Source: a virus. Taken from it: a stretch of 53,001 nt of DNA. The stretch lies in IMG/VR virus record IMGVR_UViG_3300030102_005935, positions 1 to 53,001 of that record; one strand, written 5' to 3'. The position numbers and the translations under genes were made by a program. Shown one piece after another: positions 1 to 18,249 of the stretch. The notes under the pieces were generated by a model, which was not told where the DNA came from, ran no database searches, and was given only the letters and a program-made list of their open reading frames with translations. Positions within the stretch are counted from its first letter, which is position 1, and the number at the start of each line of letters is the position of its first letter.

Positions 1-327
1 GAAGGTATCCATCATGCAACCAATTATACATGACTGTAATAGCAAGACGCGTCTTACCTGCTCCGGTAGCGGCCTTGACTGTCATGCGTGGCCTCTCAAG
101 TCCGAGCCACTTGCTGTATGCTTCCGCTTGCCACTGTCTTGCACCTTCCTCCAACTGTTCTCCTGTTCGGGTAGGAGGTAGCGAGGACAATACCATCTCT
201 TTGTCGTAGTGTTCAATACCATCCGACTGTGCGAAGTGTATCACCATGTCATCGTTAGATGAATCAACAAAGTCAATGTTCATGTCATCGTTGGTAGTGG
301 TAGTTTCAATTCCAAAATCTATTTCCA
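1..327 (-). CDS. SF2 DNA/RNA helicase, N-terminal part (gene continues off the left edge)
   Basis: Only the first 109 codons are in the window. Residues 92-99 (A-A-T-G-A-G-K-T) form a Walker A loop, and the preceding R-Q-W-Q-A-E-A stretch looks like the Q-motif region of superfamily 2 helicases, so an ATP-dependent helicase of viral replication or recombination is the likely role. The start is ATG at 327, with GGTGAGAGAA directly upstream on this strand. The N-terminal extension is low-complexity and carries three copies of a short motif also found elsewhere in the window: M-E-I-D-F-G at residues 1-6, N-D-D-M-N-I-D-F at 13-20 and N-D-D-M-V-I-H-F at 25-32. The extension precedes the catalytic core and is probably a flexible tether. 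The helicase subfamily cannot be decided without the missing C-terminus. Confidence 0.85.
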
Positions 328-354
328 TTTCTCTCACCAATTATTGATATTATC

Positions 355-368
355 TTTTTATTATAATA
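355..368 (-). promoter_or_regulatory. Putative archaeal-type TATA box for the helicase gene
   Basis: On the minus strand this AT-rich block reads TATTATAATAAAAA. It lies about 30-40 bases upstream of the helicase ATG at 327, which would give a short leader containing the GGTGA ribosome-binding site. The surrounding 340-400 is strongly AT-rich compared with flanking DNA. The assignment is by composition and spacing only. Confidence 0.4.
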
Positions 369-409
369 GAGATAACTAACTATTATTCTTATTAGAAGAA
401 CATAAGATT

Positions 410-507
410 CGTGATAATCTTCCGTGATAATCACAGGATAAGCGCGAATCACAATCTCCAACATGGGAGACAACTACACACATGTCATAGTTGTTGCGAT
501 AAGCGCG
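410..507. repeat. Short direct repeats upstream of the helicase promoter
   Basis: CGTGATAATC occurs at 410-419 and again at 423-432, 13 bp apart. GATAAGCGCG occurs at 437-446 and 498-507. Both pairs lie just upstream of the presumed helicase promoter and could be operator or initiator-protein sites. No known binding motif was recognised. Confidence 0.4.
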
Positions 508-585
508 GGGTGAATATGATAAGTTGCTTGAGTAGCAACAGGTAATATGTCAAGAACATCAAGAATCGTGCGTGCTTGACAACAA

Positions 586-767
586 CGCTGAGATATTTTC
601 AGCGCAAAGTGAATTCACAACCGTATGGTTGGCGGTTTTTTTTATGTCGGAAAAAACAACCACAATGAGCATTCATTGAGGTTGTGAGACATAAAAAAAA
701 AGGGAGCCAACCCCACCGCGAGCGGTGAGGTTGACCCCCAATGAGGACCCCGGTTTACGATACCGGG
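586..767. other. Hairpin array in the non-coding gap between the two leftward genes
   Basis: Positions 328-789 hold no gene I can support. Within them lie several inverted repeats: CGCTGA 586-591 with TCAGCG 599-604; CAACC/GGTTG at 618-631 around GTAT; a long compound hairpin at 627-712; CAACC-c-CACCGC / GCGGTG-a-GGTTG at 708-733; and CCCGGT 749-754 with ACCGGG 762-767. Three of them share the same CAACC/GGTTG outer stem. The gap is downstream of the 790-1926 gene and upstream of the helicase, both on the minus strand. It could act as terminator, leader RNA or replication element. Confidence 0.6.
627..712 (-). terminator. Long compound hairpin, possible terminator or structured RNA
   Basis: Three nested stems share one axis: GGTTGGC 627-633 pairs with GCCAACC 706-712; the 13-base arm 636-648 (eight T then ATGTC) pairs perfectly with 688-700; and ACAACC-a-CAATGA 656-668 pairs with TCATTG-a-GGTTGT 673-685 around the loop GCAT. 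Read on the minus strand, the inner hairpin is followed by a run of T, as expected of a terminator for the leftward gene ending at 790. The outer stems make it far larger than a simple terminator. Confidence 0.55.
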
Positions 768-789
768 AAACGAGTAGGACAATATTCAA

Positions 790-1926
790 TCAAAGGTTTT
801 GAAGGTCTTTGATTGACATTGAATCAATGTCAGCGTCGGACATCTTTGGAGTTCTTTGGCTGGATTGCCAATCGTTCTCTTTAGGAACCCATCTCCAATT
901 GTGTGCTGTGCCTTTGATGACCTTTGAGTCCGCAAGTTCTTGATTCAAGTCTATCCATGCTTGGACATCTTGCTTGAATTGCTTGGATACAAAGTGAGTG
1001 AAACGCATGTTGTAAAACTTACGACCACTGCCATTGATTACTGCCGCTGCCACCTTGACTAAGATGCGCTTGACGATTTGCTTCTTTTGTAGGCTAAGAT
1101 GTCCACAAAGTTCAGCGAACCAATGTCTGTAATTACCATCTAAGTCAGCACGATTGACTTTAGCGGAAGGTCTAATCTCAATGATGTCAGCAATAACAGG
1201 TTGCATGATGCTGAAGTTAGCCCAACCTGCTCGGTCCTTGAGAATTTTAGCCTCAACTCTTTGCGTGCCGTTGTTTTTGTCTTGTTCGTATCCTTTGCCG
1301 TCTTTAGCAAGGTTGAACAATACTGCTTTAGCCGCTTCAATGTCTTCATCACTTACCGCTTGGATAGCCTTGAATGATTCACCGTTTAGAGCGTCAAAGA
1401 TGTGGTTAAGTTCTGTGGCTTGCGCTTCTTCAACTTCTTCATCGCTAACCATGTCATCAAGTGATGGCATGTTGTCTCCAAAGTCAATAGACATGTCGTT
1501 GTTTGTAGTGGCCTCAGTTTGTGGCTGAGTGGTGGAAGTGTTGAACGAATCAACAAAGGTAGTGAATCCTTGACGGATATTGTTGCGGGTGGATTGTATG
1601 TCCGACCCTTTGAAGTGTTTGACAACCAAGATAGATATTTCCTTGAGTTTTTGGAAATCATTGGGCATAGACATACCGGAGTCACCTTCGTAATACTCCG
1701 TAATCTTCGTATGCTCAATGCCGACACTGTTAGCAAGGCGAACAATCAAGGTTGCGTTCTTGACTGCTTGCCGGTTGCCGGTATCGGTCTTTTTGGTCTT
1801 AATGCTGGCTTCAGTTTCATTAGCGAAGGCCATCAGTCTTGCTGCCTTTTCATCACCGTCGCCGGGTCCGAAGAAGCAATCACTGAAAGCGTCTGCTGTT
1901 TCATATACTTTGTTCTGCTGTGGCAT
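790..1926 (-). CDS. Unknown 378-aa protein in the helicase operon, carrying the D-M-S-I-D-F-G motif
   Basis: No family was recognised. I chose ATG 1926 because GGAGGT ends directly before the upstream ATG at 1932, leaving a normal 6-base spacing only for 1926. Residues 50-128 look helical and charged. Residues 128-180 are a T/Q-rich then acidic linker with N-N-D-M-S-I-D-F-G at 142-150. The C-terminal half (about 180-378) is a basic, aromatic-containing folded domain with K-K-Q-I-V-K-R-I and N-W-R-W-V-P. Its position before the helicase on the same strand, and the shared motif, suggest a replication or recombination partner, for example a DNA-binding or annealing protein. That role is inference. 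Confidence 0.75.
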   Translation of the reverse strand: MPQQNKVYETADAFSDCFFGPGDGDEKAARLMAFANETEASIKTKKTDTGNRQAVKNATLIVRLANSVGIEHTKITEYYEGDSGMSMPNDFQKLKEISILVVKHFKGSDIQSTRNNIRQGFTTFVDSFNTSTTQPQTEATTNNDMSIDFGDNMPSLDDMVSDEEVEEAQATELNHIFDALNGESFKAIQAVSDEDIEAAKAVLFNLAKDGKGYEQDKNNGTQRVEAKILKDRAGWANFSIMQPVIADIIEIRPSAKVNRADLDGNYRHWFAELCGHLSLQKKQIVKRILVKVAAAVINGSGRKFYNMRFTHFVSKQFKQDVQAWIDLNQELADSKVIKGTAHNWRWVPKENDWQSSQRTPKMSDADIDSMSIKDLQNL

Positions 1927-1983
1927 ATTCATACCTCCTACTCCCTCAATGGAAGCACTTTTGCAGTAAGATTGGGCGCGCCC

Positions 1984-1990
1984 TTTATAA
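1984..1990 (-). promoter_or_regulatory. Putative TATA box for the leftward operon
   Basis: On the minus strand the sequence is TTATAAA, immediately preceded by the perfect 10-bp palindrome GGGCGCGCCC (1974-1983 on the + strand, so just downstream in the minus-strand sense). It lies about 60 bases before the chosen ATG at 1926, which allows a 30-base leader carrying the GGAGGT site. This fits archaeal promoter spacing but is not proven. Confidence 0.4.
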
Positions 1991-2389
1991 GCAAAAGGCC
2001 AAAAATCGGGTTGTCAGTCTTCGCGTTCTTGCTGCGCGATGGAGTGCAAGAACACGCGACAACCGTATGGTTGGAGCGAGCGCGTCGTGTAGTCGTCGCT
2101 CGCGACAACACGCGCCCGCGCGTTGTGTATTATCGCGTAATCGCGACACTGCGAAGCATCGCGCCGTTAGTGAAGGTGCTGATTTGCGCGAATTATCGCG
2201 CTACGCGCCCACCCCGCGGAGCAATTTGCCCCCCGCGTTAGCCGGAGTCGCGCTCGCGGCGCGGCAATTTGCCCTCCTTAACCGCGTGCGAAATACAGAC
2301 AATTTTTTCATGGGGGTCAAAAAAAAATTAGCGCAAAAAATTTTTACGACCGCTATCTTCAAGGGCAAGGTTGCTATCCGATATACCAC
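1991..2389. other. Divergent intergenic region, CGCG-rich with direct and inverted repeats
   Basis: No convincing gene lies between the leftward operon and the 2209-aa protein. Positions 2045-2290 are much richer in CG and CGCG than the flanks and hold many imperfect repeats: GCGAGCG 2076-2082 with CGCTCGC 2097-2103, GCAATTTGCC at 2221-2230 and 2264-2273, and several ATTATCGCG-type words. A 16-base sequence identical to one in the other intergenic gap lies at 2059-2074. A divergent control region or replication origin is plausible. Confidence 0.5.
2059..2074. repeat. 16-bp repeat with hairpin, second copy at 617-632
   Basis: ACAACCGTATGGTTGG occurs here and at 617-632, both times in non-coding DNA beside leftward genes. 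The core CAACC-GTAT-GGTTG can form a five-pair hairpin with a four-base loop, or be a dyad operator. I saw no further copy in the window, but did not search exhaustively. Confidence 0.5.
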
Positions 2390-5300
2390 ATGGCTCGCTT
2401 TGTCCGTATCTTGAAGGCCACGAAAAGGCAAGAAAAAGACGAGCGCAAACGCAAGAGGGACGAGGCAAGAGAGGCACGCAAAGCCAAGAAAAAAGCGCGA
2501 CAGAATAAGAAAAAACAGGTGCGCGTAGTTGATGCTCCGCCACCAAACAAAGAGCCGAAGGAAGCCAAACCGGAACCACCGAAAGAAGAGCCACCAAAAA
2601 ATAAGGAGACTAAGCCACCAACGCGCGAAATTGCTGTCCGAGACAGAAAGAAAGGTAAAACCGAGAAGGCTTTTGAGTCTTTACAGCCTTATATGAACAA
2701 CTTGATGAAGAGGCATGACGCTGGTGAGATTGACATAGTGGACTTATACACTAATATTATCAACGCGAACAACCTTTTGATTGGTCAAGCACTTGGTATG
2801 GACGAAAGTGCGCTGTATGAAGCGCAGGGAGACATACCTGCAATTATGGCGGAACCTTTGATTAACGCTCCTGTAATGATGCACTTACAAAGAATGTCAA
2901 ACAAATACCCGGAACTCAAAGAAGTTCGCGCAGAAGACGAAGAAGACAACGGTAGTTTGGAAGATTTGATGGAGGCGACAAAAGGAATACGCGCTGATAT
3001 TTCATCGTTTATCGCGGACCCAATAAACATGGGAAGACCGCACCAACAAAAAGACATCAATGGTATTTACAAATTGTTGGCTCGCTTTAATCACCCATTG
3101 GCTGTAACGCTTGGTGAAGAAATACCAAAGAGCGACAAGATTGCACCAAACTACAAACCAAGAAGACCTCGCCAAATACGCGTTAGGGGAAAAATGACAG
3201 ACCGCGACTTTGAGGGTGAGATGAACCGTTTAGCGCGTGAACAATCGGAACTGTTGAGTGGGAGAACACCCGCGGGTTCTATGGTTCCCTTTGGAGGACC
3301 GCGAGCGCAAGACAAGAAATTCTATGACGAATTCTTTTCACAGACCGATATTGACCGCGGACCAAAGAAGCAAACTGGTATTGTTGTTAAACGACCAAGC
3401 ACCGCGATGACGAAAAATATTCTTGAAAAAGTCAAACAAATTAGTCGCGAAGAAGCACTTGATGATAAGGACGCGTTCAATAGTTTACAAGATAAATTCA
3501 ACAACTTCATGATTTCATTAACAGGCAATAAGGCGTTCGGAACATCGGGGCGCGCTGGTAAATTTGGTGGTGAAATTGAAACTGGTCGCGCACCAAACGC
3601 ACTTACACCGTCTATGGCAGAAGTTGGTAAGCAACTTGGTATCGGTATGCCAGCACCAAACATACCGGACATGATGCTCAAACCTCATTTAGAAGGTAAA
3701 TCACCTTTCAGTATGGAGTTGCGTGACGCATTGGCTGTTGAGTTAGGCCCTATGGATAAAACAGGTTTCCACCCATCGCTTGTGTCATCAACAGGTGAAG
3801 ACGGGCTACTAAGCAGTTTGCTTGATGATGAAACTAAAGAAACAACTGAGGGTGCTGGTTTTGCTGGAACTAAAGAGGAAATTGAAGAGAAAGCCAGTGA
3901 AGCGCGAAGAGCAAGAATTGGTGGAGTTGCAACTGAATCTTCAATGATGGAACCCGAAGATGAACTTGCGGTTGTTCAAGGTAAAAGGAAGATGTCGCCT
4001 TCTCAAAAGATGGCTGAACTTGAGCGCAGGTTGCAACAAGGTGATATTGACGATTATGAATATGAAATGCAAAGACTCGCGCTTCAAATGAATCAACACA
4101 AGATAGACAGCGATAAAGAATTAGGCGGTCTAAGTGGTGATGATTTTGATGTTAATCACGCATTCTTTGGTTTGAATGAGAATCAAATCATGGAGCGCAG
4201 TCAAATGTTTGTTGACAATCTTATCGGTATGGGTCGTGTTATACGAGAGTTGAGGTATGAAGCACACAGACATAGTGGTGCTGAGACACCCGAACAAAAA
4301 AAGAAAGTTGATAATGAAATAGCCGCTATGGGTTTGGACGCGCAACATCTTATTTCATTTGGTAATATTGACAATGCTCCGCTTAGGGACATATTAAGAT
4401 ACAACAGGCTTGATGATATTATGAACGGTAAACTAAGTCAAGTAATGCCGCGAATAACATCGCAGATGAATAGACAGCACAAAATGATGAAAGATATGGG
4501 CTTGAGCGATGTTGATGTTGTTAATGCGGCTATGAAATACGCTAACGCTGATATGAGTATTAGCGGATACAAAGATGCATTCAAGAGTCTGTTAACACAG
4601 AAGCGCAAAGAGGGTGATTTGAAATCATATCCAATTTATCGTTTGTTGCAATATTTACAGAAAAAGGGACTTCGCGAAGCAATGGACGAGGAACATCATC
4701 AAAAGGTAATGGAGCAGCAGAAAAGGTTTGAGAGAAACCACGCTGCGCGCAAAACAGAAAGAGAGTTAGGTAGTTTCAGTGCTGGTGGGGCTGATTTGAT
4801 GTCGCCGCAACCCGAACACATTTCTCATCTTTTAGAAGACAAAGAAGAATGTCTATCGTGCCACCCGGATAGATTTGGGAACCGAACCGCACAGGAAGCA
4901 AGACTGCATTCACCATTCAAGCGTGAAAGAACACCATTCGCGCATAAATCAATCACTATGCCTCTTTTGACTGATTACAAAGAAGGCAAAGGGCGAGGCG
5001 ACGCGCGTTTGTATGCTATTGCGCCGGAAGGTCAAACTTCCCTTGCTTCTATCGTCAATCATATTTATCCGGGCAAACTTGACATCAAGAAACTATTAGC
5101 AGAAGAAGAAAGAGTCAAAGAAGACCGTCAAAGAAGTGTTGCAAATTGGCGCAAAGATAAAACCAAAAAATACAAACGACTCATCAAAGATGCTGTTCTT
5201 ACAGGTAATCCACGCGCTGCAAACATTTACAAAAAGTTTGGACTTTACAAGACAATTGAGAATGCTATCGCAACAGGACCAGCGGGTATGAGCAACAAAG

Positions 5301-8300
5301 AATTAGTTGCTGCATCGTTCTTCATGAATAACGACGATTCAATTGATAAATTCCAAGAAATGCATCGTAAAAAGACGCTTATGGCTACAAGATTCAACGC
5401 TATTACTGACGCTATTGATTTCATGAAAGAGATAGCCGAAGGTCAATATGGTGGTAAAATCAAACCGGGTGCGTTGAAAAGTGAATCATTAAGACGCGCT
5501 CTTCTTAGTGAATTAGTTGGTGGGCCTATTGATGGTATTCAAAGAGCAGACAAAAGCATACTAAGAGCAAAAAGAAGCCTTGAATCATTAGACCCTATTT
5601 ACCGACAGTATTTAGCAGAACAAAAGGACTATGAGGAAAAATTAGCGCAAACCAAGATGCAGACATACATTGACGAAGATGGTAATGAGCGACAAGAACG
5701 CGGACAATATATGGAGCCATCACAAATCGCAATGATTGAAGAAATCGCTAAAAAGATTGACAAGAAGTATAGCAGTATGTTGTTAGACCGTAAAAACAAA
5801 CTTAGCACTATCAAGCGTAATGAAAACAAAAAGCAAAAACTACAAGATGCAAGCGAAGAATCTTTGTCGCGTGTTAACGAATTCATGCTTGGTGTTTTCA
5901 TCAAGGCCGGTGGTGACATTGCAAAGATTCTCAACAGCAAAAAACCAACAACGAGTATGGTATCCAAACTGTATGAACAGTTGTATGAAGACGATGACTT
6001 TGATTCAATACACCGCGCTGATACAGATGGCAACTTGAGCCGCGACTTTACTCATTCTTTGAGTAATTACAAATTGGGACGAATGGGTGAAATGGCTGGA
6101 ACAGGTATCATGGCTCATAACAACAACAAAGCATTGCCGCGTGTTAACAATATCAACCAACTACTTGCTCATCGTATCGCTATGGGCTTCCCCCTCAAAG
6201 AAGATGACATTGAGCGCGCTAAATCAATGATGTTTGATGCTGAGATGACTGATGCTGTTGATGATGAAGATGATGAAGAGTTTATGCGATTAGCGCGTGA
6301 AATGATGACCGAAGAAGAAATACAGAATCTATCGGAAAAGAAACATCATCATCATGACGACAGTGCTAACGAGTTGGGGTTAATCACAGAAGCAGAAGCA
6401 GCGCGAAGGGAGCAAAATTCACACTTTACAAGAGGTAGTGAAGAAGCCATTGAAAGAGGTGATATTAATGCGCAGTCGTTGATAAGTAATTGGCGACAAC
6501 ATGCACCAACATTATGCGGAACATGTCATGGACATAAGTTCGTTACTAAAGATGAAGCAATCTCATTCTTGCGTCATCGCATACCGGAACTGGAAGGTGT
6601 AGGAAGAGACAGTCCAAGAATGATGAAATACATATCACAAAACTTACGACCGCGAGGCACGCAAGATTTCGCAAGTCATGAAATGGCTGATGAAATGGAA
6701 GACCACGAACACGAACAATTCGCGTGTCCGGCATGTGAACACAGTGCTGATTATGTTCAAGGTGGTAAGTGTAGCAACGGTTTATGCCCCGATTGTTTAG
6801 GTAGTGGTGTCCGCGACCCATTAGATGATGAACACATACATGATGGTTACACAGACGCGGAAGGAAACAAAATAGATGGTAAAAACCATCACTATTCGCA
6901 TAACGGTGCAGTCGGCGCGAAGTTTGACCACCTTAACCAACTGCTATTACAGGGAGCAGAAATGATGCAAAGCGGTAAAATACCCGACTTTCTGCAAGAA
7001 GTCGTTAAACGCGCTTCACCAGTATGGCAGCAGTATGGTGATTATGTAGGGACAGGTAAATACAAAACAATTGAGGATAAAAGAAATGCAGCGCGAAAGA
7101 AAGAATTGGAACCGTTGGAGATTGACCCTAACGCGCCGGAGATACCCGGTCCACCAAGAGAAGAAAACGAAGAAACGGCAGATAACACAGATATGAATAT
7201 TGATTTCGGTCAAGAAAAACCAAAAGATAACACAGATATGAATATTGATTTCGGTCAAGAAAAAGAAGAGCCAAGAATTGACATACCGTTATACGGTGTG
7301 CAAAAGAAGGCTCTTGATTCTCATCACAAGATAATGCTTGAAAACAGAATTAATCAATTAGAAATGATTGGTGTAAAAACACAAGAAAACGCTGGTAATG
7401 CTGACGCAGTAAAGATGATAAAAGATTTAGCGGCAGAAATTAGAGCAGACCCCGCTTTCATCAGCGGTGAAGTTCATGGAAACGATATGCACCCGCTGGT
7501 TGATAAAATACACAAGTTGCAAGAATATGCAGAAGCGGCGTATGTTGCTTCCGAAATGGGCTTTGACGACAGAAGAAAAATACCGTATGATGAAAAAGGC
7601 AACATACTAACAAGCGTCAAGGACATATTTGCTGGTGATTCACCTTTGACATTTGCTGATTATGAACCGTTGACCCCTATGCATGGACACAACTTGACAT
7701 TAAGTGAAATAGCAGAAGGACTGTTTGAAGATGGTGCGACTCATTCACCAAGACCGATTGATGATAAAAGATTAGCAGACTTATTCCGCGGTAACAATAA
7801 AGCGATGGGTGTCATCAATCGTCGCCAGCAATACAACAAACTTGACAAAAATAAACTAAGCAAAATAGCCTCCGCGCTTGATGGAATTGACAAACCAATG
7901 GTTGCTCGTAAAACAACTAATTTGAGAAGCGACTCATTAGATGCTATATTGAAAGAATTTGGCGAAGAAGGTAAAGTCTCCGAGATGGATAAACCGCAGT
8001 TGACTTATAGTGATGAAACAATGAATGCGTTTAAGCAAGCAGGTGCTACAGATGTTAACGCATTAATTACTGCACCAAACGCTAACAAACAAAATCGCGC
8101 AATCAACGAAGGATACAATGTGAACTTGAATAGTTCAATCAAAGAGTTGTGGCAAGAGTATGTTCTAAAGACAGCAATGAGAACATTCATGACGCGCGTT
8201 AACAACCCTCTTGATTTCCCAAAGATACCCGAAAACATCACACCGTCAAACATGAAACAGTTAGTTGGTGAAGATGTTGGGTTGTTCAAATTGTTAAGAG

Positions 8301-9019
8301 ATGAAGCCGCGAAACTATGTGGTTATGAAAATGAAGATGAGTTTAGTAAAAAGGTTGGGTTGACCAGCAAAATAGAGATTACTGACGGTAAAGGAAGAGT
8401 TGCGCGAGAGTTGAACCCAAGAGAATTCAAAGCAGATGTTATGCAGAATGCTAACCATGAAGATAGTGCTAAATTAGATTTAGGTTTTGTCAAATATCAA
8501 AAAGACGATGAAGGTAATCTCATTAGTGCTAAGTTTACACCAACAGATTTGAAAAAGTTGTTTGCTAATTCACAAAAATTAGCATTCTCAGCAGAAGATA
8601 AGGCGATGTATGACGGTATGGTAAAATCCGCTCAATGGCATCACTATCCTAATTGGTATCATAGAGATGTGATGCGCGATGTATTACAAGGTCAAGAAGG
8701 CAAAGAAGATGGGTTTAGTGATTATGATGAGTTGAGTCAAGCATTCCAAAATGGCCTGTTGCCACCGGAGATAGATAAAAGACTCAAAGAATCACTTATT
8801 CTAACAAGAATGTCGCACCCTACATTGAATCATCAAAACTACGGTGATATGTTAGCGTATGACCACGCGAGACAGGAAATGTTGAGAATGCAAAGAATGT
8901 CGCGTATGCAACGATATGGAACTAACCCGTATCTTGGACCTACACCCACGCAACCAACGGAGATGCCCCAGCAACAACAGCAACAGCCCGCAATTGATTT
9001 TGAGGGCGATTCTCAATAA
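2390..9019 (+). CDS. Giant 2209-aa basic and zinc-finger protein, probably virion-associated
   Basis: No enzyme family was recognised. Residues 1-85 are extremely Lys/Arg-rich and then Pro/Glu-rich, a likely nucleic-acid-binding or disordered tail. The middle is mostly charged helical sequence. Three cysteine clusters look like zinc sites: C821/C824, C1376/C1379 and C1446/C1449/C1461/C1466/C1469; the last ends in C-P-D-C-L-G-S-G, like the repeats of DnaJ-type zinc fingers. D-N-T-D-M-N-I-D-F-G occurs twice, at residues 1598-1607 and 1613-1622, and the C-terminus ends P-A-I-D-F-E-G-D-S-Q. ATG 2390 lacks a clear Shine-Dalgarno, so a leaderless start is possible. An internal virion or ejected protein is a guess from its size, composition and shared motif. 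Confidence 0.85.
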   Translation: MARFVRILKATKRQEKDERKRKRDEAREARKAKKKARQNKKKQVRVVDAPPPNKEPKEAKPEPPKEEPPKNKETKPPTREIAVRDRKKGKTEKAFESLQPYMNNLMKRHDAGEIDIVDLYTNIINANNLLIGQALGMDESALYEAQGDIPAIMAEPLINAPVMMHLQRMSNKYPELKEVRAEDEEDNGSLEDLMEATKGIRADISSFIADPINMGRPHQQKDINGIYKLLARFNHPLAVTLGEEIPKSDKIAPNYKPRRPRQIRVRGKMTDRDFEGEMNRLAREQSELLSGRTPAGSMVPFGGPRAQDKKFYDEFFSQTDIDRGPKKQTGIVVKRPSTAMTKNILEKVKQISREEALDDKDAFNSLQDKFNNFMISLTGNKAFGTSGRAGKFGGEIETGRAPNALTPSMAEVGKQLGIGMPAPNIPDMMLKPHLEGKSPFSMELRDALAVELGPMDKTGFHPSLVSSTGEDGLLSSLLDDETKETTEGAGFAGTKEEIEEKASEARRARIGGVATESSMMEPEDELAVVQGKRKMSPSQKMAELERRLQQGDIDDYEYEMQRLALQMNQHKIDSDKELGGLSGDDFDVNHAFFGLNENQIMERSQMFVDNLIGMGRVIRELRYEAHRHSGAETPEQKKKVDNEIAAMGLDAQHLISFGNIDNAPLRDILRYNRLDDIMNGKLSQVMPRITSQMNRQHKMMKDMGLSDVDVVNAAMKYANADMSISGYKDAFKSLLTQKRKEGDLKSYPIYRLLQYLQKKGLREAMDEEHHQKVMEQQKRFERNHAARKTERELGSFSAGGADLMSPQPEHISHLLEDKEECLSCHPDRFGNRTAQEARLHSPFKRERTPFAHKSITMPLLTDYKEGKGRGDARLYAIAPEGQTSLASIVNHIYPGKLDIKKLLAEEERVKEDRQRSVANWRKDKTKKYKRLIKDAVLTGNPRAANIYKKFGLYKTIENAIATGPAGMSNKELVAASFFMNNDDSIDKFQEMHRKKTLMATRFNAITDAIDFMKEIAEGQYGGKIKPGALKSESLRRALLSELVGGPIDGIQRADKSILRAKRSLESLDPIYRQYLAEQKDYEEKLAQTKMQTYIDEDGNERQERGQYMEPSQIAMIEEIAKKIDKKYSSMLLDRKNKLSTIKRNENKKQKLQDASEESLSRVNEFMLGVFIKAGGDIAKILNSKKPTTSMVSKLYEQLYEDDDFDSIHRADTDGNLSRDFTHSLSNYKLGRMGEMAGTGIMAHNNNKALPRVNNINQLLAHRIAMGFPLKEDDIERAKSMMFDAEMTDAVDDEDDEEFMRLAREMMTEEEIQNLSEKKHHHHDDSANELGLITEAEAARREQNSHFTRGSEEAIERGDINAQSLISNWRQHAPTLCGTCHGHKFVTKDEAISFLRHRIPELEGVGRDSPRMMKYISQNLRPRGTQDFASHEMADEMEDHEHEQFACPACEHSADYVQGGKCSNGLCPDCLGSGVRDPLDDEHIHDGYTDAEGNKIDGKNHHYSHNGAVGAKFDHLNQLLLQGAEMMQSGKIPDFLQEVVKRASPVWQQYGDYVGTGKYKTIEDKRNAARKKELEPLEIDPNAPEIPGPPREENEETADNTDMNIDFGQEKPKDNTDMNIDFGQEKEEPRIDIPLYGVQKKALDSHHKIMLENRINQLEMIGVKTQENAGNADAVKMIKDLAAEIRADPAFISGEVHGNDMHPLVDKIHKLQEYAEAAYVASEMGFDDRRKIPYDEKGNILTSVKDIFAGDSPLTFADYEPLTPMHGHNLTLSEIAEGLFEDGATHSPRPIDDKRLADLFRGNNKAMGVINRRQQYNKLDKNKLSKIASALDGIDKPMVARKTTNLRSDSLDAILKEFGEEGKVSEMDKPQLTYSDETMNAFKQAGATDVNALITAPNANKQNRAINEGYNVNLNSSIKELWQEYVLKTAMRTFMTRVNNPLDFPKIPENITPSNMKQLVGEDVGLFKLLRDEAAKLCGYENEDEFSKKVGLTSKIEITDGKGRVARELNPREFKADVMQNANHEDSAKLDLGFVKYQKDDEGNLISAKFTPTDLKKLFANSQKLAFSAEDKAMYDGMVKSAQWHHYPNWYHRDVMRDVLQGQEGKEDGFSDYDELSQAFQNGLLPPEIDKRLKESLILTRMSHPTLNHQNYGDMLAYDHARQEMLRMQRMSRMQRYGTNPYLGPTPTQPTEMPQQQQQQPAIDFEGDSQ
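7181..7264 (+). repeat. 39-bp perfect tandem repeat encoding the D-M-N-I-D-F-G motif
   Basis: The 39 bases at 7181-7219 are repeated exactly at 7226-7264 (45-bp period). Each copy encodes D-N-T-D-M-N-I-D-F-G-Q-E-K inside the 2209-aa protein. DNA-level identity indicates a recent duplication of the motif rather than ancient divergence. Confidence 0.9.
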
Positions 9020-9024
9020 TATCG

Positions 9025-9031: not shown

Positions 9032-9044
9032 CTCATAATCATAA

Positions 9045-9056: not shown

Positions 9057-9099
9057 TTCTGATAATAATACGATAATAGCGATAAAAGGGTGAATCAAC

Positions 9100-9147: not shown

Positions 9148-9148
9148 T

Positions 9149-9670: not shown

Positions 9671-9675
9671 AAACT

Positions 9676-9912: not shown

Positions 9913-10635
9913 TTGGTTGCAACATTCGCTGGTAGCGCACTTATGGGTGCTGTTGTGTATGGCCGCGAATTGTATAATTTTCTTAAACCGCGCAGAATTG
10001 GCGTTTACGGTCCGACGCAAGTTGGAAAAACCACACTTGACCAATTTATGCGCACACCGGGAGAAATGGACGATATAGAGGAAAGGACGATGCACGCGAA
10101 ACGGTTATTTGGCGGAGGATATGTTCTTCCTAAAGCAACAAGGAAGCGTTTGCGCTGGAAAGGTGAAAAAAGAGTCGTGCATTCGGCTGATATTGGCGGT
10201 CAACAGCGTTTTTGGAATCTATGGATTGATGATATGGTTGATAGACAAGTGGAAATTGCTATTTTTATGACTGACACGCGTGTTTTGAAAGGTAATGGTG
10301 CGCAAATTATTGACGCAGTAGGTGGATTTGAGTATCTTGTTGACTCATTGATAGAAAAAAGATGGAAATATCGCTCTTTAAAATCAAGATTGAAAGGAAA
10401 ACGCTACGCTCCAAAGCAAATATGGCTTGTAGCGAACAAAGCCGATGAATGGTGGGACGAAAACGCTAACATTTTGTGGCAATCTAACCGATTGCGAGAA
10501 CATAAAGTGTTTGATGCACACCGTCCAGCCATGCGAAGACTACAAAAAGCAGGTATTCCGTGTCGTGTTAGCATGATGGCAACCAAAATCGGCTGGAATG
10601 TGGAAAAAACAATGATAGAAATGTTAAGTTGGTGA
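9913..10635 (+). CDS. Arf/Ras-like small GTPase with N-terminal hydrophobic segment
   Basis: The 240-aa protein shows GTPase motifs in the right order and spacing: G1 P-loop G33-P-T-Q-V-G-K-T-T41, G3 D93-I-G-G-Q97 (the D-x-G-G-Q form of Arf-like proteins) and G4 N175-K-A-D178 after a hydrophobic strand (I-W-L-V-A). It should therefore bind and hydrolyse GTP and switch conformation. Residues 3-17 (T-F-A-G-S-A-L-M-G-A-V-V) are hydrophobic and may be a short membrane anchor. The start is TTG 9913, directly after the previous stop; ATG 9943 is an alternative that would shorten this segment. It sits between membrane proteins, which suggests a membrane-bound switch. Virus-encoded small GTPases are unusual; recent host origin is possible. 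Confidence 0.8.
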   Translation: MVATFAGSALMGAVVYGRELYNFLKPRRIGVYGPTQVGKTTLDQFMRTPGEMDDIEERTMHAKRLFGGGYVLPKATRKRLRWKGEKRVVHSADIGGQQRFWNLWIDDMVDRQVEIAIFMTDTRVLKGNGAQIIDAVGGFEYLVDSLIEKRWKYRSLKSRLKGKRYAPKQIWLVANKADEWWDENANILWQSNRLREHKVFDAHRPAMRRLQKAGIPCRVSMMATKIGWNVEKTMIEMLSW

Positions 10636-10639
10636 TAAA

Positions 10640-11524: not shown

Positions 11525-11533
11525 GGTGGTATC

Positions 11534-12115
11534 ATGGTATGGCCGTTTAATAGTAATAATCAGCAAAACCAACAACCAAATGGTGCTTTGAATCTCGGTT
11601 TAGCGGGTGGACAACAGCAAGTTCCGGTGCAGGGACAGCAACAACAGTGGGGACAACAGCAATATGGTTTCCAATATCAAGCACCTCCGAGTGAAATGGA
11701 GATATTATCCGCGATGATAACTACAAATCCAATGATAGACAAGTGGTTATCGGACAACAACGGTGATAATATGAATATGCTTGTGTCGCTTTTAAGTAGT
11801 TTAGTTGCGGTTTCAATCAATACTCTTCTTGCGAATGCGCGTTTAGTTGAAGATGGAGATGGATATAAGTTTGATTTTAGCGGCGTTCAAGGTATGCCAA
11901 CGGCTGATAGCGTCATGATGAGTCAAACACAAATACTCAACAAGGCATCTAACAATGTTCAACAAAAATCTATGGAATTTCAACAAATGGTTAACCTTGC
12001 GAACCAAAGCGTGATGCAAGGTATGTTGAATGATGCTATGGCTGACCCCGGATTGATGCAAAATGTTGGTGGCGGTATTGGCTCATTCCTTCGCGGTGTT
12101 ACAACAGGACGGTGA
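11534..12115 (+). CDS. Unknown Gln-rich 193-aa protein of the GTPase module
   Basis: The start follows GAGGTGGT by four bases. Residues 1-52 are dominated by Gln, Asn and Gly, likely disordered. Residues 55-110 contain a hydrophobic helix (M-L-V-S-L-L-S-S-L-V-A-V), and the remainder is Met/Gln/Asn-rich helix ending G-G-G-I-G-S-F-L-R-G. No domain was recognised. Its stop overlaps the ribosome-binding site of the next membrane-protein gene. Confidence 0.65.
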   Translation: MVWPFNSNNQQNQQPNGALNLGLAGGQQQVPVQGQQQQWGQQQYGFQYQAPPSEMEILSAMITTNPMIDKWLSDNNGDNMNMLVSLLSSLVAVSINTLLANARLVEDGDGYKFDFSGVQGMPTADSVMMSQTQILNKASNNVQQKSMEFQQMVNLANQSVMQGMLNDAMADPGLMQNVGGGIGSFLRGVTTGR

Positions 12116-12120
12116 TGATT

Positions 12121-12354
12121 ATGGATATGACATCTTTTTTTACAACAGTTAGTGATATGACTAATTTGCGCAAATCTGTCGTAGTTGACATGATTATGGT
12201 TCAACTTATCTCTTTGACACTCGGTTGTTTCATGCTTTTAGTGTTTTCCGGCCCCGATATGACATCAAAAGACCTAAGTTGGGTCATAGGTGCATTATTC
12301 ATCTGTTTCAGTGCTACTGGTATCGTTTATCGTCGCCTCGGACAACAAGGTTGA
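12121..12354 (+). CDS. Small two-helix membrane protein
   Basis: The 77-residue protein has two hydrophobic segments, about residues 20-40 and 50-68, joined by a short polar loop; a holin-like topology is possible but no lysis enzyme is next to it. GGTGAT at 12111-12116 favours ATG 12121 over the in-frame GTG 12112 or ATG 12115. The gene ends the rightward GTPase module. Its last 60 bases overlap the 3' end of the convergent zinc-ribbon gene. Confidence 0.65.
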   Translation: MDMTSFFTTVSDMTNLRKSVVVDMIMVQLISLTLGCFMLLVFSGPDMTSKDLSWVIGALFICFSATGIVYRRLGQQG

Positions 12355-12603
12355 CCATTTACCAACTGGACATTCACTATTTTTCAAAATAGTTTTTGTT
12401 TTGATAAAACAACCACATAGACTACATCTATCGTGATTTCTTTCGGGGCATTTCAAACAAATGTTGTAACGACGCTCTCTTTCTGTTAAGTCTGCGCGTT
12501 GGTTAGTGATTAAATCAGCCGCGGCTCGCGAAAGACTCTTCGCTGTGCCTAATGAGATTGGAATTCCCGCTACTTTTGGGGCGCGACCTAACCTTTTTCT
12601 CAT
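12295..12603 (-). CDS. Zinc-ribbon protein, 102 aa, on the opposite strand
   Basis: Six cysteines, C49, C52, C60, C63, C65 and C78, form a K-C-P ... C-S-L-C-G-C-F ... C-P-V-G-K-W pattern that I recognise from many small uncharacterised proteins of marine tailed phages; at least one zinc is expected. The N-terminus is basic with helical, DNA-binding-like character. It is the only minus-strand gene I support right of 1926 and is divergent from the putative small terminase, with only 37 bases between the two starts. A regulatory role is conceivable but unproven. Confidence 0.7.
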   Translation of the reverse strand: MRKRLGRAPKVAGIPISLGTAKSLSRAAADLITNQRADLTERERRYNICLKCPERNHDRCSLCGCFIKTKTILKNSECPVGKWSTLLSEATINDTSSTETDE

Positions 12604-12640
12604 GGAAACCCTCTTTTGCTACAACTACTTGGTCTTTACT

Positions 12641-13309
12641 ATGGCGGAGCGTATATCAAGAGCATCTTGTAAGTTCTGTCAAGACCCCGACCGCGATGGT
12701 ATTGAGGAAATGATGAAGGCTGGATTGATTACTGCGAAGCAGTTAGATAAAGACAAAGGCTGGCGAGAAGGAACCGCTGACAGACATTTTCGCAACCACG
12801 CGGGGGAATATCACATGGGGAGTAACAGCGAATGTCCTCTTTGCACATCTCCCCAACGAGAAAATCTTGAAATGGCTTATTTTAATGCCAGTATGACTGT
12901 TGAAGAAATCGCACAAGAATTACAAATGCCCGAATCAAGCGTGTATCACCATCTCAAGCATCATCTTAAGCCAATAGTGCAAAAAGGCGCGGCGGATATT
13001 ATCATAATTGAAGCAGGTAAAGAAATGGACAGTCTAAGAACAAACTTGGCGCGAATCAATGGTGAGTTAGGTCATTTCCTTGACGATGCAGACCGCAATG
13101 ACCCGCAATATGTTCGCAACATAGTATCTTTGCACAAAGAAGTTCGCGAAACAGTCAAAGACATCATGAGAGTGCAAGAGCGCGCGGCTGGAACTACTAA
13201 CGAAAACATGACTGCACAAACCATAAACATACTCAAAGTTGAATTAGCGAAAGAGTCCCCCGAAGTGTGGGCGCGACTACGCGGCAAGTTGATGGGAGGT
13301 GATGAATGA
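12641..13309 (+). CDS. Putative small terminase subunit with two CxxC/HxxxH zinc-HTH units
   Basis: The 222-aa protein begins with two related units: C10-x2-C13 ... H49-x3-H53 and C65-x2-C68 ... H103/H104-x3-H107/H108. In the second, the intervening V-E-E-I-A-Q-E-L-Q-M-P-E-S-S-V-Y-H is a clear helix-turn-helix. A charged helical region (about 125-222) follows, suitable for oligomerisation. HTH plus coiled coil at the head of a packaging module fits a TerS that recognises viral DNA for TerL (18256). Translation from upstream in-frame codons was rejected because 12506-12603 is antisense to the zinc-ribbon gene and ATG 12641 begins the conserved part. A transcription regulator is the main alternative. 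Confidence 0.6.
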   Translation: MAERISRASCKFCQDPDRDGIEEMMKAGLITAKQLDKDKGWREGTADRHFRNHAGEYHMGSNSECPLCTSPQRENLEMAYFNASMTVEEIAQELQMPESSVYHHLKHHLKPIVQKGAADIIIIEAGKEMDSLRTNLARINGELGHFLDDADRNDPQYVRNIVSLHKEVRETVKDIMRVQERAAGTTNENMTAQTINILKVELAKESPEVWARLRGKLMGGDE

Positions 13310-14607
13310 TGGTAGGTGGACCCGAAGGTAGCACCGCAGGTATGCGTTTTAATCCCCGCGAAAGTGCAGAAGAATTACAAGATGACTCTTCAGTTGGTCG
13401 TGAAGATTCCGAAGAGCGTGCTTTGCATGATGCGAAGAAGAGGGAGAAACAAGAGAAACGCGCTAAAATGATGCAAGGTCTTCAACACATGAAGATAAAA
13501 ATACCACAAAAACGCGATGATGAAGAAGATAGCGACATGAAAAGACAGGCCGAGGCCGGTCAAATGTCCGGTCAAGTTGGTCAAAATGAGGCTATTGATG
13601 GCGCAAACCCACGCGGTAGTTTTGGTGGTGGTGCTGGAATGAACATGTTGTTGTCATCAGCACCTTTCATTGATGACGCTTTTGACATGATTCGCAAAAA
13701 GAAAAACGATGGGCCGAAGTTTGATGACGATAAACCCAAAAAGACAACAACTATTGATACTGTTCTTTCACGAAGGCGCGCTAAAAAAGGTAGGCGTAAG
13801 AAAAAGATGGGTAAAACCACTGAATCTTTCAAAGGTAGGCAAGGTAAAAGCAAAAAGAAACTCTTTGGTAATGTCACAAGGCCGGGTTATGTTCGTAATC
13901 CCGCTGCAATGACAGCGTTAAGAGGTGGTCAAGCACCTTACCAAACATTCGGTTTGATGGGTTCACGCAGACAATCTCCAACAGCACCGAGATTCTTGAC
14001 TGTTTCATCGGGAAGAAGTCGTGCAAGACAGGCTACTAACCCACGAACAAAATTAGGTCAAGATGTTCGTCAAGAAGTTCGTCAAGACACCCCAACTCAA
14101 GATTTGACCCCTCCTACTCCAACTGTGACACCGGAAGCGAGAATAGCACGCGCTGTTCGTGGTTCACGCGATTCTCGTCCACATAAAAAGGCAACAAGAC
14201 AACCAAGAACTGCATCAACACCCGGTGGTAAAGATTTAACAGAAGCAATATCGTTTGGAGGTGGTGCTTCTGCTATGGCCGCGGGCGGTATTGGTTCAAC
14301 AGACGACGCTATATTAGCCTCCGAAGAGTTCTTACTTAAGCGCGCGCAGAAGTTGAAATTAGGAATATCTGCTCGCGACCGTATTGAATATCGTCAATTG
14401 ATAGACCAACTCAATCATCTATTGCGCCGATTAATGCGTAAAGAGGATAAGTCAATGCAGGGTGCTGATGAAAAATCGTCACCTAACTCATCGGGTGGTC
14501 TTTCATCTAATCCAACAGGGGCTACTGAAACAGACCCCGATGACGACGCTACGCGATGGGGCGCACACCCTTACGATTTGTATGTTAGGAGAGGTGGTGT
14601 AGGTTGA
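13306..14607 (+). CDS. Unknown basic, largely disordered 433-aa protein
   Basis: The gene starts within the preceding stop (ATGA) behind GGGAGGTGAT; ATG 13309 is equally possible. Residues 40-75 and 140-190 are very rich in Lys and Arg, with K-K-G-R-R-K-K-K-M-G-K. Residues 225-300 hold Arg/Gln/Thr-Pro-rich sequence with V-R-Q-E-V-R-Q-D repeats. Only two short stretches (about 105-125 and 320-380) look folded. No family was recognised. Basic and disordered composition suggests DNA contact or a virion-internal role. It overlaps the next gene by four bases. Confidence 0.65.
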   Translation: MMVGGPEGSTAGMRFNPRESAEELQDDSSVGREDSEERALHDAKKREKQEKRAKMMQGLQHMKIKIPQKRDDEEDSDMKRQAEAGQMSGQVGQNEAIDGANPRGSFGGGAGMNMLLSSAPFIDDAFDMIRKKKNDGPKFDDDKPKKTTTIDTVLSRRRAKKGRRKKKMGKTTESFKGRQGKSKKKLFGNVTRPGYVRNPAAMTALRGGQAPYQTFGLMGSRRQSPTAPRFLTVSSGRSRARQATNPRTKLGQDVRQEVRQDTPTQDLTPPTPTVTPEARIARAVRGSRDSRPHKKATRQPRTASTPGGKDLTEAISFGGGASAMAAGGIGSTDDAILASEEFLLKRAQKLKLGISARDRIEYRQLIDQLNHLLRRLMRKEDKSMQGADEKSSPNSSGGLSSNPTGATETDPDDDATRWGAHPYDLYVRRGGVG

Positions 14608-16415
14608 GCGATATTATCCTAAAAGGAGAAGGAGTGTTTTACTTTGATGGTAAAGAATATCACGACCAAACCTTTCCTCCCGAAGAATCCGACCACGAAA
14701 ACATCTCTCATTTTCATATCAACAGTAAAACAGGAAAACCGTTCAAAGAACTTGAGGGTAAGGGTTTAGTCGGTAAATGGCCTATGGAAATCGCTGCTGG
14801 TATTTTGGCTCGCGAAATCATGGAGCAAGGATACAAAGACGAAAACGGTGTAAGAAGAAAACCTACAACCGAAAGCGATGCTTTGCGTAGCGCGAAAAGA
14901 ATGATGAACGAAGCAACAGAAGATTTCAATAAGACAAAAAGAGCAGCAGGTGATGATTATCACACATTAAAAACACCGTTTGATTTAGCAAATGGCGGTA
15001 TATTACACCCCGAATATGCAACCAATCATTATGGTGGACACGAATCTCGTCGTAAATCAACAGCAGAAAGAAGAACGCGAACAGATGATGGGAGATTAAT
15101 TGTTAATCACCCGCGTAATCAAGCGCATGAAAAACTTGGTCAACATCTTGAGTCTGCTGCTTTACACATTTTTGATGAATTAGAACAGCGCGCAAAAAAG
15201 AACGGTATCAAAACTTCTTTGGGTGCTGAACAAAATGTCATTGAACCTCAGCAACTTACGCAGGGTATCACACATCGTTATACTTCTAACGACAAACCGC
15301 CGGGTCATAGAGAACACAAGATAGTCCCCTCTCATTACAAAGATTTGCACGCTCAAACTGCTGCTTATGGACAAATATCTCCGATGGATATTGTGTCTGT
15401 TTTACCATCGGACTTCTTCTATCCGTCAACAGCCGGTGGTATGTCAACAAGAATAATGAATCAACTTATGGAAATGGGATATGACCAACCAACGGCGAGG
15501 GCTATGGCTCGCGCTCCCGTCAATCAGTTGTTATACGGTAGTGGTAAAGAAGGAAGAGAAAGCGGTCTTAACAAAGTAGTTCGTAACATGCGCGCTAAAA
15601 TGCAAGTTGATGACAACGACGATATACATGCTATGTTCAAAAACCATCTATCTCATATCGCACCTAAGATAAGAGGTGGCGATAATGGAAGAAATAACAA
15701 AGCGATTGAAATATTGGCTCTATTGAAAACTGGTGAAGAGTTAGGTGTTGAGCCAGCAGATTACTCAATGTATCCATCAGCACCAGCGAGCGTGATGGAT
15801 AATTGGCGCGAAGTCGCTCTTTCTCAAGGTGGCTCAACTATTGATATGGCCGCACTTGGTAGTGTTGATGAAAGACATGATATGCGCGGTAATTTAGTTT
15901 CACAAGATAGTTATCATCGTCATGAAAAATTCCCATCTTATTTGAGCGGTGGTTCCTTTGCTGATATTTTACCACCTACCCCTATTGTTGAAGAACCGTT
16001 GAGTCAACCTCCCGCCGTGGACTTTGATAATATAGAAGAAGAGCCACCAGTGCCACCGCAACAAATAGACCCTCTTGGTCAACAACCTCGTTATCCATTA
16101 CAAGATTTAGGTTTTAGCGACATGTCTCAATTCAATCCATTCCAATTGTCCGATGATGACCCAATGGGTGTTATCGCGACAATCATGGAGCGTGTGCAAA
16201 TGCATGACGCAGGTGGCTCTTTGTTAGTAAAATATGACCCTATGGATAATTATGACATGCATAAATTGGGTCAAAATGTAGGCATGTCAAGTAATGATGT
16301 TCGCGCGATTGCAATGTCGCTTGGTGATTGGGAGATTATAGCGAAATCTTTTAACACTACGCACGATGTGGTTCGCGCTATTAAGAGGTCAGTAGGAGGC
16401 GCGCTAAATGGTTGA
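14604..16415 (+). CDS. Unknown 603-aa protein, possibly head-internal
   Basis: TTG 14604 overlaps the previous stop (TTGA) behind GGAGGTGGT. The first 200 residues are mixed alpha/beta with several His-rich stretches. Around residue 290-305, M-N-Q-L-M-E-M-G-Y-D-Q-P-T-A-R-A resembles a UBA-like three-helix motif (Met-Gly-Tyr loop); this is only a resemblance. Near residue 465 a disordered Pro/Gln-rich linker contains P-P-A-V-D-F-D-N-I-E-E, a weak form of the I-D-F-G motif seen elsewhere. The last 90 residues look like a compact helical domain. Function unknown. Confidence 0.65.
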   Translation: MSDIILKGEGVFYFDGKEYHDQTFPPEESDHENISHFHINSKTGKPFKELEGKGLVGKWPMEIAAGILAREIMEQGYKDENGVRRKPTTESDALRSAKRMMNEATEDFNKTKRAAGDDYHTLKTPFDLANGGILHPEYATNHYGGHESRRKSTAERRTRTDDGRLIVNHPRNQAHEKLGQHLESAALHIFDELEQRAKKNGIKTSLGAEQNVIEPQQLTQGITHRYTSNDKPPGHREHKIVPSHYKDLHAQTAAYGQISPMDIVSVLPSDFFYPSTAGGMSTRIMNQLMEMGYDQPTARAMARAPVNQLLYGSGKEGRESGLNKVVRNMRAKMQVDDNDDIHAMFKNHLSHIAPKIRGGDNGRNNKAIEILALLKTGEELGVEPADYSMYPSAPASVMDNWREVALSQGGSTIDMAALGSVDERHDMRGNLVSQDSYHRHEKFPSYLSGGSFADILPPTPIVEEPLSQPPAVDFDNIEEEPPVPPQQIDPLGQQPRYPLQDLGFSDMSQFNPFQLSDDDPMGVIATIMERVQMHDAGGSLLVKYDPMDNYDMHKLGQNVGMSSNDVRAIAMSLGDWEIIAKSFNTTHDVVRAIKRSVGGALNG

Positions 16416-18249
16416 ATTATGGGAAATAGAATGGAATAGTAGTATGATACAACATGGTCGTGACTTAGGCACGATGGAATTTATCTTTGCAAAAGGCGGC
16501 AACCTCTCGGATATGAACTATGTCATGTTTGATGTTCAAGACAATACTTGGGAACCTCTCATCAAGGCTGTCGCGGAGCGCGACCATTCTCATCCCGACA
16601 TCATTCGTAAGAATGTTCCTCAACAACAACAACAACCGTTTTTCATGGATAACAGTCAACAAGGTGCATTACCGTTTATGGGAACAGGTGCAAGAAGCGC
16701 AAGAGAAATGAACAGACTTTACAACGCTGGTCAGCGAGCAGCAGACCTCCAAAATTACGCTCAAGACCCCAGCGCAATGAACGCTTTGCGCGCTGGTAAA
16801 TACGGAACTGCCGCAGGTAAAGGTTTGATAAATGTAGGTCGTGGTATTATGCAAGGTGCGCGAGCCACCCGCGATTACATGAGAGACACAGCCGGACCTA
16901 AGATGAAAGAAATGGCTGGTCGTGGCGTGGAAGCGGCTGGTCGTGGTCTAAGTGCGGCAAAAGACATGACTGGTCGTGGCCTAAGTGCGGCAAAAGACAT
17001 GACTGGTCGTGGGCTAAGTGCAGCAGCAGACATGGCTGGTCGTGGGCTTCAAGCAGTCAAAGACAGCGGTTTAGGTGAGCGTATGAAGAACTTTATGAGC
17101 GGTGCGGGTCGTGCAATCAGCGATTTGCGATTCTTACCGCAAGCAGCAAAGCAATCATACAAACAAATGGTAGCCGCAGGTGAAGACGAGGCTCGTCGTT
17201 CAGCACTTGAAGGCGGTCTTAGTCGCGGACAAAAAGAAATTGACGACGCATCAAGAAGGGCAGTTCCGGGTTCGCAGTTTTATGATTCCGAAATGGACCG
17301 AGCGCGAGCAAGCACAAGTCAAGGACTCTCTCGCGATTTCAATATCACTCCAAGAGTTCACGAAAAAGGTAAGAACAAAGGACAACCGATGGAATCAGTT
17401 GAAGATGCTATGCGCCGCGAAATTCAAGAAATTGGTGAAAGACGCAAATTACCAAAAGAAGGTTTCTTCGCTGGTATGAGGCGACGCGGTGATGAGCGAC
17501 GAGAGGCGAAAGCGGCACAACAACGAGGTGATGCGTTTGCTCCATCTAACATCGTGCCGGAAGAACCACCTAAACTACCCGATGCACCAACACCGGAAGC
17601 AGAAGCGGCGGCTAATGCTGATGCGAAAGTCACAGATACAAATGAAGACATGAACATTGACTTCGGACCCGAAACAGGAACACCACCGGACACAGGTGTA
17701 GTTGGCCCTCAACCTTCACAGAAAGCAACAGACGCTATGGCGATATTTGACAAAGTGCAAGAAAACAAGCGCAAGCGAATGGGAATGGAAACCGCTACGG
17801 CGACTGAACCAACACGCGGGCAAAGTGCTGTTACTGGCGCAGGTATGAAAATAGGTGCAACCGCAGGTGATAGAGTCGCGGGTGGGTTAGATGAGTTCTT
17901 TGCACAACACGAAAAAACACCATTCGCTGACCGCGAAGCGGCAAGGCAAGCCATGTTACAAGGTAATATAGGAACGAGCAGAATGAAAGAGGCTGGTAAA
18001 TTCTCCGGTAAAACAGCAAAGGCTGTTGAGCAAGTGTTGACTGAAATGTATGGTCCAGCGCAAGCAAAAGCAATTGTTCAAGCCGCGGAGCAAGGTAATC
18101 CCGACGCTCAAGAAATTGTTGAAGAAGCCGCTGAAAAAACTGACAATAGCGACATGAACATTGACTTCGGAAGCGAAATGATGACTTTGAGCGCGGATGA
18201 ACATCAAGCGGCTTGGGATTCGTTGTTGAAGCAGATGAGTATTAGGTGA
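16408..18249 (+). CDS. Unknown 613-aa protein with 11-residue repeats and two D-M-N-I-D-F-G motifs
   Basis: ATG 16408 overlaps the previous gene by eight bases behind TAGGAGG. Residues 1-60 look folded. Residues 125-225 are Ala/Gly/Met-rich amphipathic helix including three and a partial fourth copy of G-R-G-L-S-A-A-K-D-M-T from residue 178; eleven-residue repeats of this kind can coil around membranes, lipids or other helices. The rest is charged and mostly disordered. N-E-D-M-N-I-D-F-G lies at residues 412-420 and N-S-D-M-N-I-D-F-G at 580-588, close to the C-terminus. It may be a virion-internal or scaffold-type protein; no family was recognised. Confidence 0.7.
   Translation: MVELWEIEWNSSMIQHGRDLGTMEFIFAKGGNLSDMNYVMFDVQDNTWEPLIKAVAERDHSHPDIIRKNVPQQQQQPFFMDNSQQGALPFMGTGARSAREMNRLYNAGQRAADLQNYAQDPSAMNALRAGKYGTAAGKGLINVGRGIMQGARATRDYMRDTAGPKMKEMAGRGVEAAGRGLSAAKDMTGRGLSAAKDMTGRGLSAAADMAGRGLQAVKDSGLGERMKNFMSGAGRAISDLRFLPQAAKQSYKQMVAAGEDEARRSALEGGLSRGQKEIDDASRRAVPGSQFYDSEMDRARASTSQGLSRDFNITPRVHEKGKNKGQPMESVEDAMRREIQEIGERRKLPKEGFFAGMRRRGDERREAKAAQQRGDAFAPSNIVPEEPPKLPDAPTPEAEAAANADAKVTDTNEDMNIDFGPETGTPPDTGVVGPQPSQKATDAMAIFDKVQENKRKRMGMETATATEPTRGQSAVTGAGMKIGATAGDRVAGGLDEFFAQHEKTPFADREAARQAMLQGNIGTSRMKEAGKFSGKTAKAVEQVLTEMYGPAQAKAIVQAAEQGNPDAQEIVEEAAEKTDNSDMNIDFGSEMMTLSADEHQAAWDSLLKQMSIR
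16939..17064 (+). repeat. 33-bp tandem repeat in the 613-aa gene
   Basis: Copies start at 16939, 16972, 17005 and 17038 (last partial), each beginning GGTCGTGG and encoding an 11-residue amphipathic helix turn unit. The first two full copies are almost identical, so the array expanded recently. A diverged GGTCGTGG also occurs at 16918. Confidence 0.85.

Follow-up and report, generated by a model that had tools for sequence, protein, structure and literature searches.

Several known systems use short peptides to bring proteins to a common partner or place, so that docking and targeting peptides as such are a known kind of element. Clamp-binding motifs, such as the PIP box and the bacterial clamp motif, equip many genome-handling proteins with one motif that leads them to one hub. 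The C-terminal tail of single-stranded DNA-binding protein (SSB), a disordered acidic and hydrophobic peptide ending in Pro-Phe, has one bearer and many readers. Here we describe a short motif, N-x-D-M-N-I-D-F-G, that recurs in several proteins of the virus record IMGVR_UViG_3300030102_005935, whose 53,001 bases we analysed in full (hereafter the window). We propose, with a probability of roughly 0.7, that this motif serves as a docking tag, private to the virus and present in several copies, for a single putative receptor. In contrast to the clamp-binding motifs, the tag lacks their consensus, and polymerase and clamp loader are untagged. It also differs from the SSB tail in having about six bearers and in standing at internal positions in several cases.

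Two described targeting peptides are alike in other respects. According to the available text of PMC3012670, the internal proteins of phage T4 carry a conserved capsid targeting sequence common to otherwise diverse proteins. In both systems a short sequence sits on diverse proteins of one virus, which it brings, or here would bring, to one place; the tag, however, has different letters in close relatives, is present many times and may be N-terminal, internal or C-terminal. The cargo loading peptide of encapsulins, as presented in the available text of PMC7355545, is short, stands at either end of several cargo proteins and is read by an HK97-type shell. It too is a short peptide on several different proteins, but its consensus is absent from our tag segments, and the capsid proteins of two close relatives, G025 and G030, are 100% identical over 379 amino acids (aa) despite different tags. 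Because of this identity, the capsid protein, judged by sequence, does not read the tag difference of this pair. Borg elements, which belong to archaea, have proteins with fast-changing amino acid tandem repeats in disordered regions, likened by their authors to short linear motifs; each repeat unit is unique in its genome, and sharing is very rare (PMC9879509, available text). Here, in contrast, a single peptide is common to a fixed set of proteins.

Both ends of the window fall inside genes, and both overlap a second contig, IMGVR_UViG_3300030102_004251 (G020; 48,905 bases). Window positions 3-100 match over 98 nucleotides (nt) with 100% identity and positions 52448-53001 over 554 nt with 98.0% identity. 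Because both ends overlap, the sequences indicate that the window and G020 together make up one genome of about 101 kb; they come from one virus or from two that are nearly identical. Among the products of G020 are a family B polymerase, a clamp-loader-like AAA protein and a thermosome-group (group II) chaperonin, and one of its proteins has a weak match to a processivity factor. Its primase and RadA-like genes were labelled by eye, with no Pfam family found. The window encodes a head maturation protease and has a major head protein match that indicates an HK97-type head. Magroviruses (Magrovirales), tailed viruses of marine archaea, have genomes of 90-100 kb that encode a family B polymerase, clamp, clamp loader, chaperonin and HK97-type head (PMC10768690). 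The gene content of the window virus would fit this description, with the genome at about 101 kb, and it is a marine virus whose host is probably archaeal.

Across this genome the tag marks six proteins. A profile scan, queried with the tag copies of the 613-aa protein (613), the 2209-aa protein (2209), p680 and p175, returned 11 segments in six proteins of the window and G020 that outscore everything in 314,571 residues of other contigs. The two remaining carriers, the helicase and p380, were recovered although absent from the query. On G020 the motif recurs only in p680 (NDDMNMDFGNNDDMTIDFGNTDDMDISFE), which has a weak DUF932 match, and in p175 (NNDDMFIDFGNNDDMFIDFG). No copy in the polymerase, clamp loader, portal or capsid protein was among the scan matches from the window and G020. 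DMWIEFG, at residues 97-105 of p680, is a look-alike and not a tag; this region is conserved in relatives whatever their tag. The original prediction, made from the window's letters, had located the motif in the helicase, its 378-aa partner, 2209, 613 and, weakly, a 603-aa protein, and it is present at each of these places. The partner proved to be p380, of 380 aa, with its motif at residues 144-152 and not 142-150. The proposed link to replication proteins is not supported for polymerase and clamp loader, where the tag was not found. The prediction had likened the motif in style to SSB tails and clamp-binding peptides while noting a match to neither consensus; in the tag segments of six viruses, patterns of the archaeal PIP, bacterial clamp, SSB-tail and encapsulin-peptide types are all absent.

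In relatives, other letters occupy the same places. Letters like DMNIDF occur in none of the first 19 relatives of 613, and this virus specificity became visible only because 613 orthologues were aligned, not through a search for the letters. In the alignment, both sites are kept and filled by a different peptide, alike within each virus. The single consensus first proposed therefore gives way to virus-specific letters: LD[VI]GDI in G038 (helicase, p680, p175, 2209 and 613), TMP[DE][LI] in G014 with G040, PEIDFG and DIDWG in G002, F[IV]EEDMP in G016, PLTEED in G023 (nine copies in p680) and FDM[ST]GAxPT in G013. The scan of G038 itself gave five proteins; its p380, whose gene spans contig ends, bears a degenerate tag, TLEVDIDAPTLEVGSVGG, recognised by eye only. 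Absence of the motif from relatives with conserved flanks had been named in advance as a finding against docking. For DMNIDFG this is literally so, yet most relatives have another, equally shared peptide there, which supports rather than refutes the docking idea. In the helicase, the window virus, G002, G014 and G038 have the tag at the N-terminus, whereas G016 and G023 have it at the C-terminus. Most tags are acidic, with 0-4 Lys and Arg against 26-122 Asp and Glu in the tag segments of six viruses; a comparison of flank hydropathy was uninformative.

Further relatives were sought with patterns lying outside the tags. No relative came from a scan in which p380 was the sole query, a phage collection held no relative of 613, and a genome scan matched a single contig, filed under a Cytophagaceae metagenome-assembled genome. 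This contig, PAUP01000076.1, has the same extent and match position as IMGVR_UViG_2788499960_000001 and is probably mis-binned virus DNA. On G041 (2-1750) a p680 relative opens with DELEDDG repeats, which may be a further tag, though no p175 was found beside it on G041. The region of 613 between its two tags (about window 17770-18100) is polymorphic, with at least three dissimilar types that vary among relatives independently of the tag, and it differs between G001 and G010 despite their common tag.

The virus represented by G014 and G040 offered a prediction. G014 spans late genes together with those for helicase and p380. Its tag, NTMPDL, had been read before G040, which supplies the early half, was found. 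G040 overlaps G014 by 127 nt with 100% identity; its p680 bears DTMPDIGLNTMPSLGSDNTMPAMNTMPAMNTMPEIGL and its p175 bears NTMPDLNTMPDLNTMPTM and NTMPDL. With the late-half copies alone as query, the best p680 and p175 segments are unequalled in other contigs (G012 excluded). The pattern TMP[DEASVT][LIM], its letters widened after the copies had been seen (the profile scan used late-half copies only), has 17 matches in this virus (25,278 aa), spread over exactly six proteins, and none in 332,970 aa from other viruses, the same-tag G011 and G012 excluded.

Matching within a virus was then assessed by relabelling. For the two sites of 613, whose bounds were set after the data had been seen, 28 dereplicated viruses of 37 gave an own-virus sum of 818, as compared with a mean of 526 (standard deviation 21, maximum 631) in 20,000 relabellings. 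In 15 of the 28, the own site 2 resembled site 1 more than any other virus's site 2 did; among the others are cases in which a virus whose tag is identical or similar scores as well. When site 2 was shuffled 200 times per virus, the fraction was at most 0.03 in 20/28. Segments of six viruses, chosen by place in the six proteins, were likewise compared, with two viruses joined from contigs via overlapping ends and G013/G039 excluded. The true pairing ranked first in 13 of 15 protein pairs, with a helicase segment that was settled once the data were known: residues 1-60 in four viruses, and both ends of the protein in G016 and G023. For 613 and 2209 in 16 viruses, the true pairing exceeded all 50,000 relabellings; G013 and G039, which have a common tag and come from one metagenome, were assumed to be one virus here and in the codon comparison below.

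This sharing could also be a by-product of concerted DNA evolution, in which recombination or gene conversion carries short repeats from gene to gene. Codons at equal residues were compared, G013 and G039 included, and the test was repeated without the p680 look-alike, which a first version had counted; these comparisons are non-independent, and rough through overlapping G016 matches. Copying has left local traces: within proteins, 245 of 387 codons (63%) are identical where 153 are expected, the two copies in 2209 are identical in DNA, seven core codons are identical between the two sites of 613, and the p175 tail of G040 (3157-3855) carries a fragment of the neighbouring p680 amid its tag copies, a sign of local recombination. 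Between proteins, however, identity is 49% (717/1455; 574, or 39%, expected from usage), where recent copying should approach 100%. G014 lies at expectation (18/63 against 18.6), and copies stand in frame at the same places in the same proteins. We regard DNA copying as an improbable explanation of the shared peptide. Because synonymous codons between proteins are near random, the peptide is under selection, and its sharing between proteins is, on codon evidence, maintained mainly at the peptide level. The original prediction had inferred such selection from the use of different codons. Different codons are indeed used between genes, though not within them, and the codon identities and pairing tests support selection on the peptide.

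Tags have also been switched between near-identical viruses. They differ in the pairs G025/G030, G008/G009 and G015/G023, whose mean late-block distances, calculated without 613, are 0.02, 0.04 and 0.06. Gene by gene in tag-switch pairs, most late-block neighbours are 89-100% identical, with 84-93% for 2209 and 62-74% for 613. G002 and G038, again with different tags, share 89% identity in p680, 84% in p175, 61% in the helicase, 36% in 613, 34% in 2209 and 34% in p380 (191 aa).

A number of observations weigh against a docking tag with one receptor. Five of the 28 viruses (G029, G033, G036, G037 and x063) have no shared-tag signal in 613, and in G007 the best match within 613 is not the tag. 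Two of the 15 protein pairs were not first, 2209-p680 (2 of 120) and helicase-p380 (9 of 720). The own pairing of 613 and 2209 is best in only 6/16 viruses, because several lineages have no clear 2209 tag; G016 and G023 lack the tag at that place. The p380 copies have degenerate letters, a switch can leave tags with letters in common (EEDxP in both G016 and G023), and the codon identity between proteins exceeds expectation, which implies some DNA copying. The tags of p680 and p380 have predicted local distance difference test scores of 25-36, in AlphaFold models that are poor throughout (mean 50), and a Foldseek search with the p680 model gave nothing usable (best E 1.1). Finally, no receptor emerged when tag distances in 18 viruses were related to the distances of ten late-block proteins by partial correlation: no protein co-varies conspicuously with the tag, and the largest partial r, that of 613 itself, is 0.157.

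613 was considered as the receptor and dropped. It is the most divergent large protein in the tag-switch pairs but also in the same-tag control pair G001/G010 (74%, the rest 95-100%), so that its divergence is no evidence of reading. p380 is a receptor candidate because no other carrier has so divergent a body: in three pairs its identity is 34-36%, against 66-77% for the helicase. We consider a viral receptor more likely than a host one. No hub protein of the kind first postulated to collect the tagged proteins emerged from the co-variation search; the underlying idea of a common partner gains support beyond the window. The small gene after the capsid protein (window 33808-34203) is unusually divergent in near-identical pairs, with 58% identity in G025/G030 and 37% in G008/G009.

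The tag is a short peptide, in most viruses acidic, with hydrophobic anchor residues; one to nine copies stand in linkers or tails of each carrier. The carrier set is fixed, comprising the SF2 helicase, p380, p680, p175 and 613, with 2209 in some relatives. The sequence comparisons show that the peptide is specific to each virus, changes coherently across this set, has been switched between near-identical viruses and is under selection. In the docking model, which goes further, one receptor would read all copies and change along with them, and weak multivalent binding could gather the carriers into one assembly. Its likely job would be to bring accessory genome-handling proteins together with two late proteins. 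We propose this from the lack of tags on polymerase and clamp loader and from the place of two carriers in the late operon, next to the terminase. The assembly might be cargo loaded with the genome or a genome-bound compartment, which we rate about equally. As a more tentative extension, which we hold to be possible but rather doubtful, the tag might serve as a self/non-self barcode that marks a virus's own accessory and late proteins and keeps those of co-infecting relatives out of the assembly. Tags and reader would then be under pressure to become private, and viruses whose late-block proteins average 94-98% identity would differ in tag, as they do where carriers are comparable.

Tags that bind each other as homotypic stickers would also have to match within a virus and be free in sequence otherwise. 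Such binding explains both features without a receptor; copies are often tandem, and the co-variation search found no receptor. Yet most tags are so strongly acidic that they should repel one another, as with PLTDDDEP repeats and with the tag segments of G023 (122 Asp and Glu, zero Lys and Arg), and we find this account very unlikely. Least credible is the idea that a viral protease, for instance the head maturation protease, cuts at the tags, with a specificity that changes with its substrates: sites of one protease do resemble each other within a virus, several tags lie in linkers and the window encodes such a protease. However, no tag was found in the protease or in portal and capsid protein, which with the scaffold are the usual substrates. 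Up to nine copies in tandem, or a tag at the very end of a protein, would be hard to understand as cleavage sites, and G025 and G030, despite their switched tags, share 98.4% identity in the protease gene, assigned by position.

If the docking tag is confirmed, one virus would change the same short motif in step across several of its genes, a natural experiment on the joint change of motif and reader. The orphans p380, p680, p175, 613 and 2209 would become one testable system, and uncharacterised viral proteins could be grouped into one assembly without homology. The tag would perhaps also be a private address code that separates a virus's own proteins from those of a relative. In the literature on magrovirus and archaeal-virus motifs, of which few subscription papers were covered, we found no account of one motif coherently rewritten over several genes between near-identical viruses; in the available text of PMC10160649, from the magrovirus literature, the word 'motif' occurs 0 times.

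Table 1. Tag copies and the proteins that carry them in the window (ORF, open reading frame).
Feature	Position	Strand	Evidence and remarks
SF2 (ResIII-like) helicase, first 109 aa, ATG at 328, off window edge	2..328	-	Pfam ResIII, E 8.2e-5; gene continues on G020
Tag MEIDFG, helicase N-terminus	311..328	-	sequence
Tag NDDMNIDFV, helicase	266..292	-	sequence
Tag NDDMVIHFA, helicase	230..256	-	sequence and profile scan
p380, no family found	790..1932	-	ORF; poor model with two helical parts and a tag linker between
Tag NNDMSIDFG, p380	1477..1503	-	sequence and profile scan
2209-aa late protein	2390..9019	+	ORF; family set of 22 sequences
Tag NTDMNIDFG, 2209, first copy	7184..7210	+	sequence
Tag NTDMNIDFG, 2209, second copy	7229..7255	+	sequence
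Partial tag QPAIDFE, 2209 C-terminus	8984..9004	+	sequence
603-aa protein	14604..16415	+	ORF
Weak PPAVDFD, 603-aa protein	16008..16028	+	sequence
613-aa protein, adjoins terminase	16408..18249	+	ORF; family set of 37 sequences
Tag NEDMNIDFG, 613 site 1	17641..17667	+	sequence
Tag NSDMNIDFG, 613 site 2	18145..18171	+	sequence

The two weaker entries of Table 1 have fuller counterparts in G001 and G010: their 2209 proteins have QPIDFG in place of the partial C-terminal tag, and their 603-aa proteins bear the full tag of their own virus.

Two other genes of the window deserve mention. The protein encoded at 9913-10635 has no Pfam match and no significant sequence match in the PDB; it has a hydrophobic N-terminus and, in 22 of 22 orthologues, motifs that resemble small-GTPase patterns, a label given by eye. 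The 466-aa protein encoded at 20858-22258 matches an HNH endonuclease PHROG at residues 297-400 (E 8e-11).

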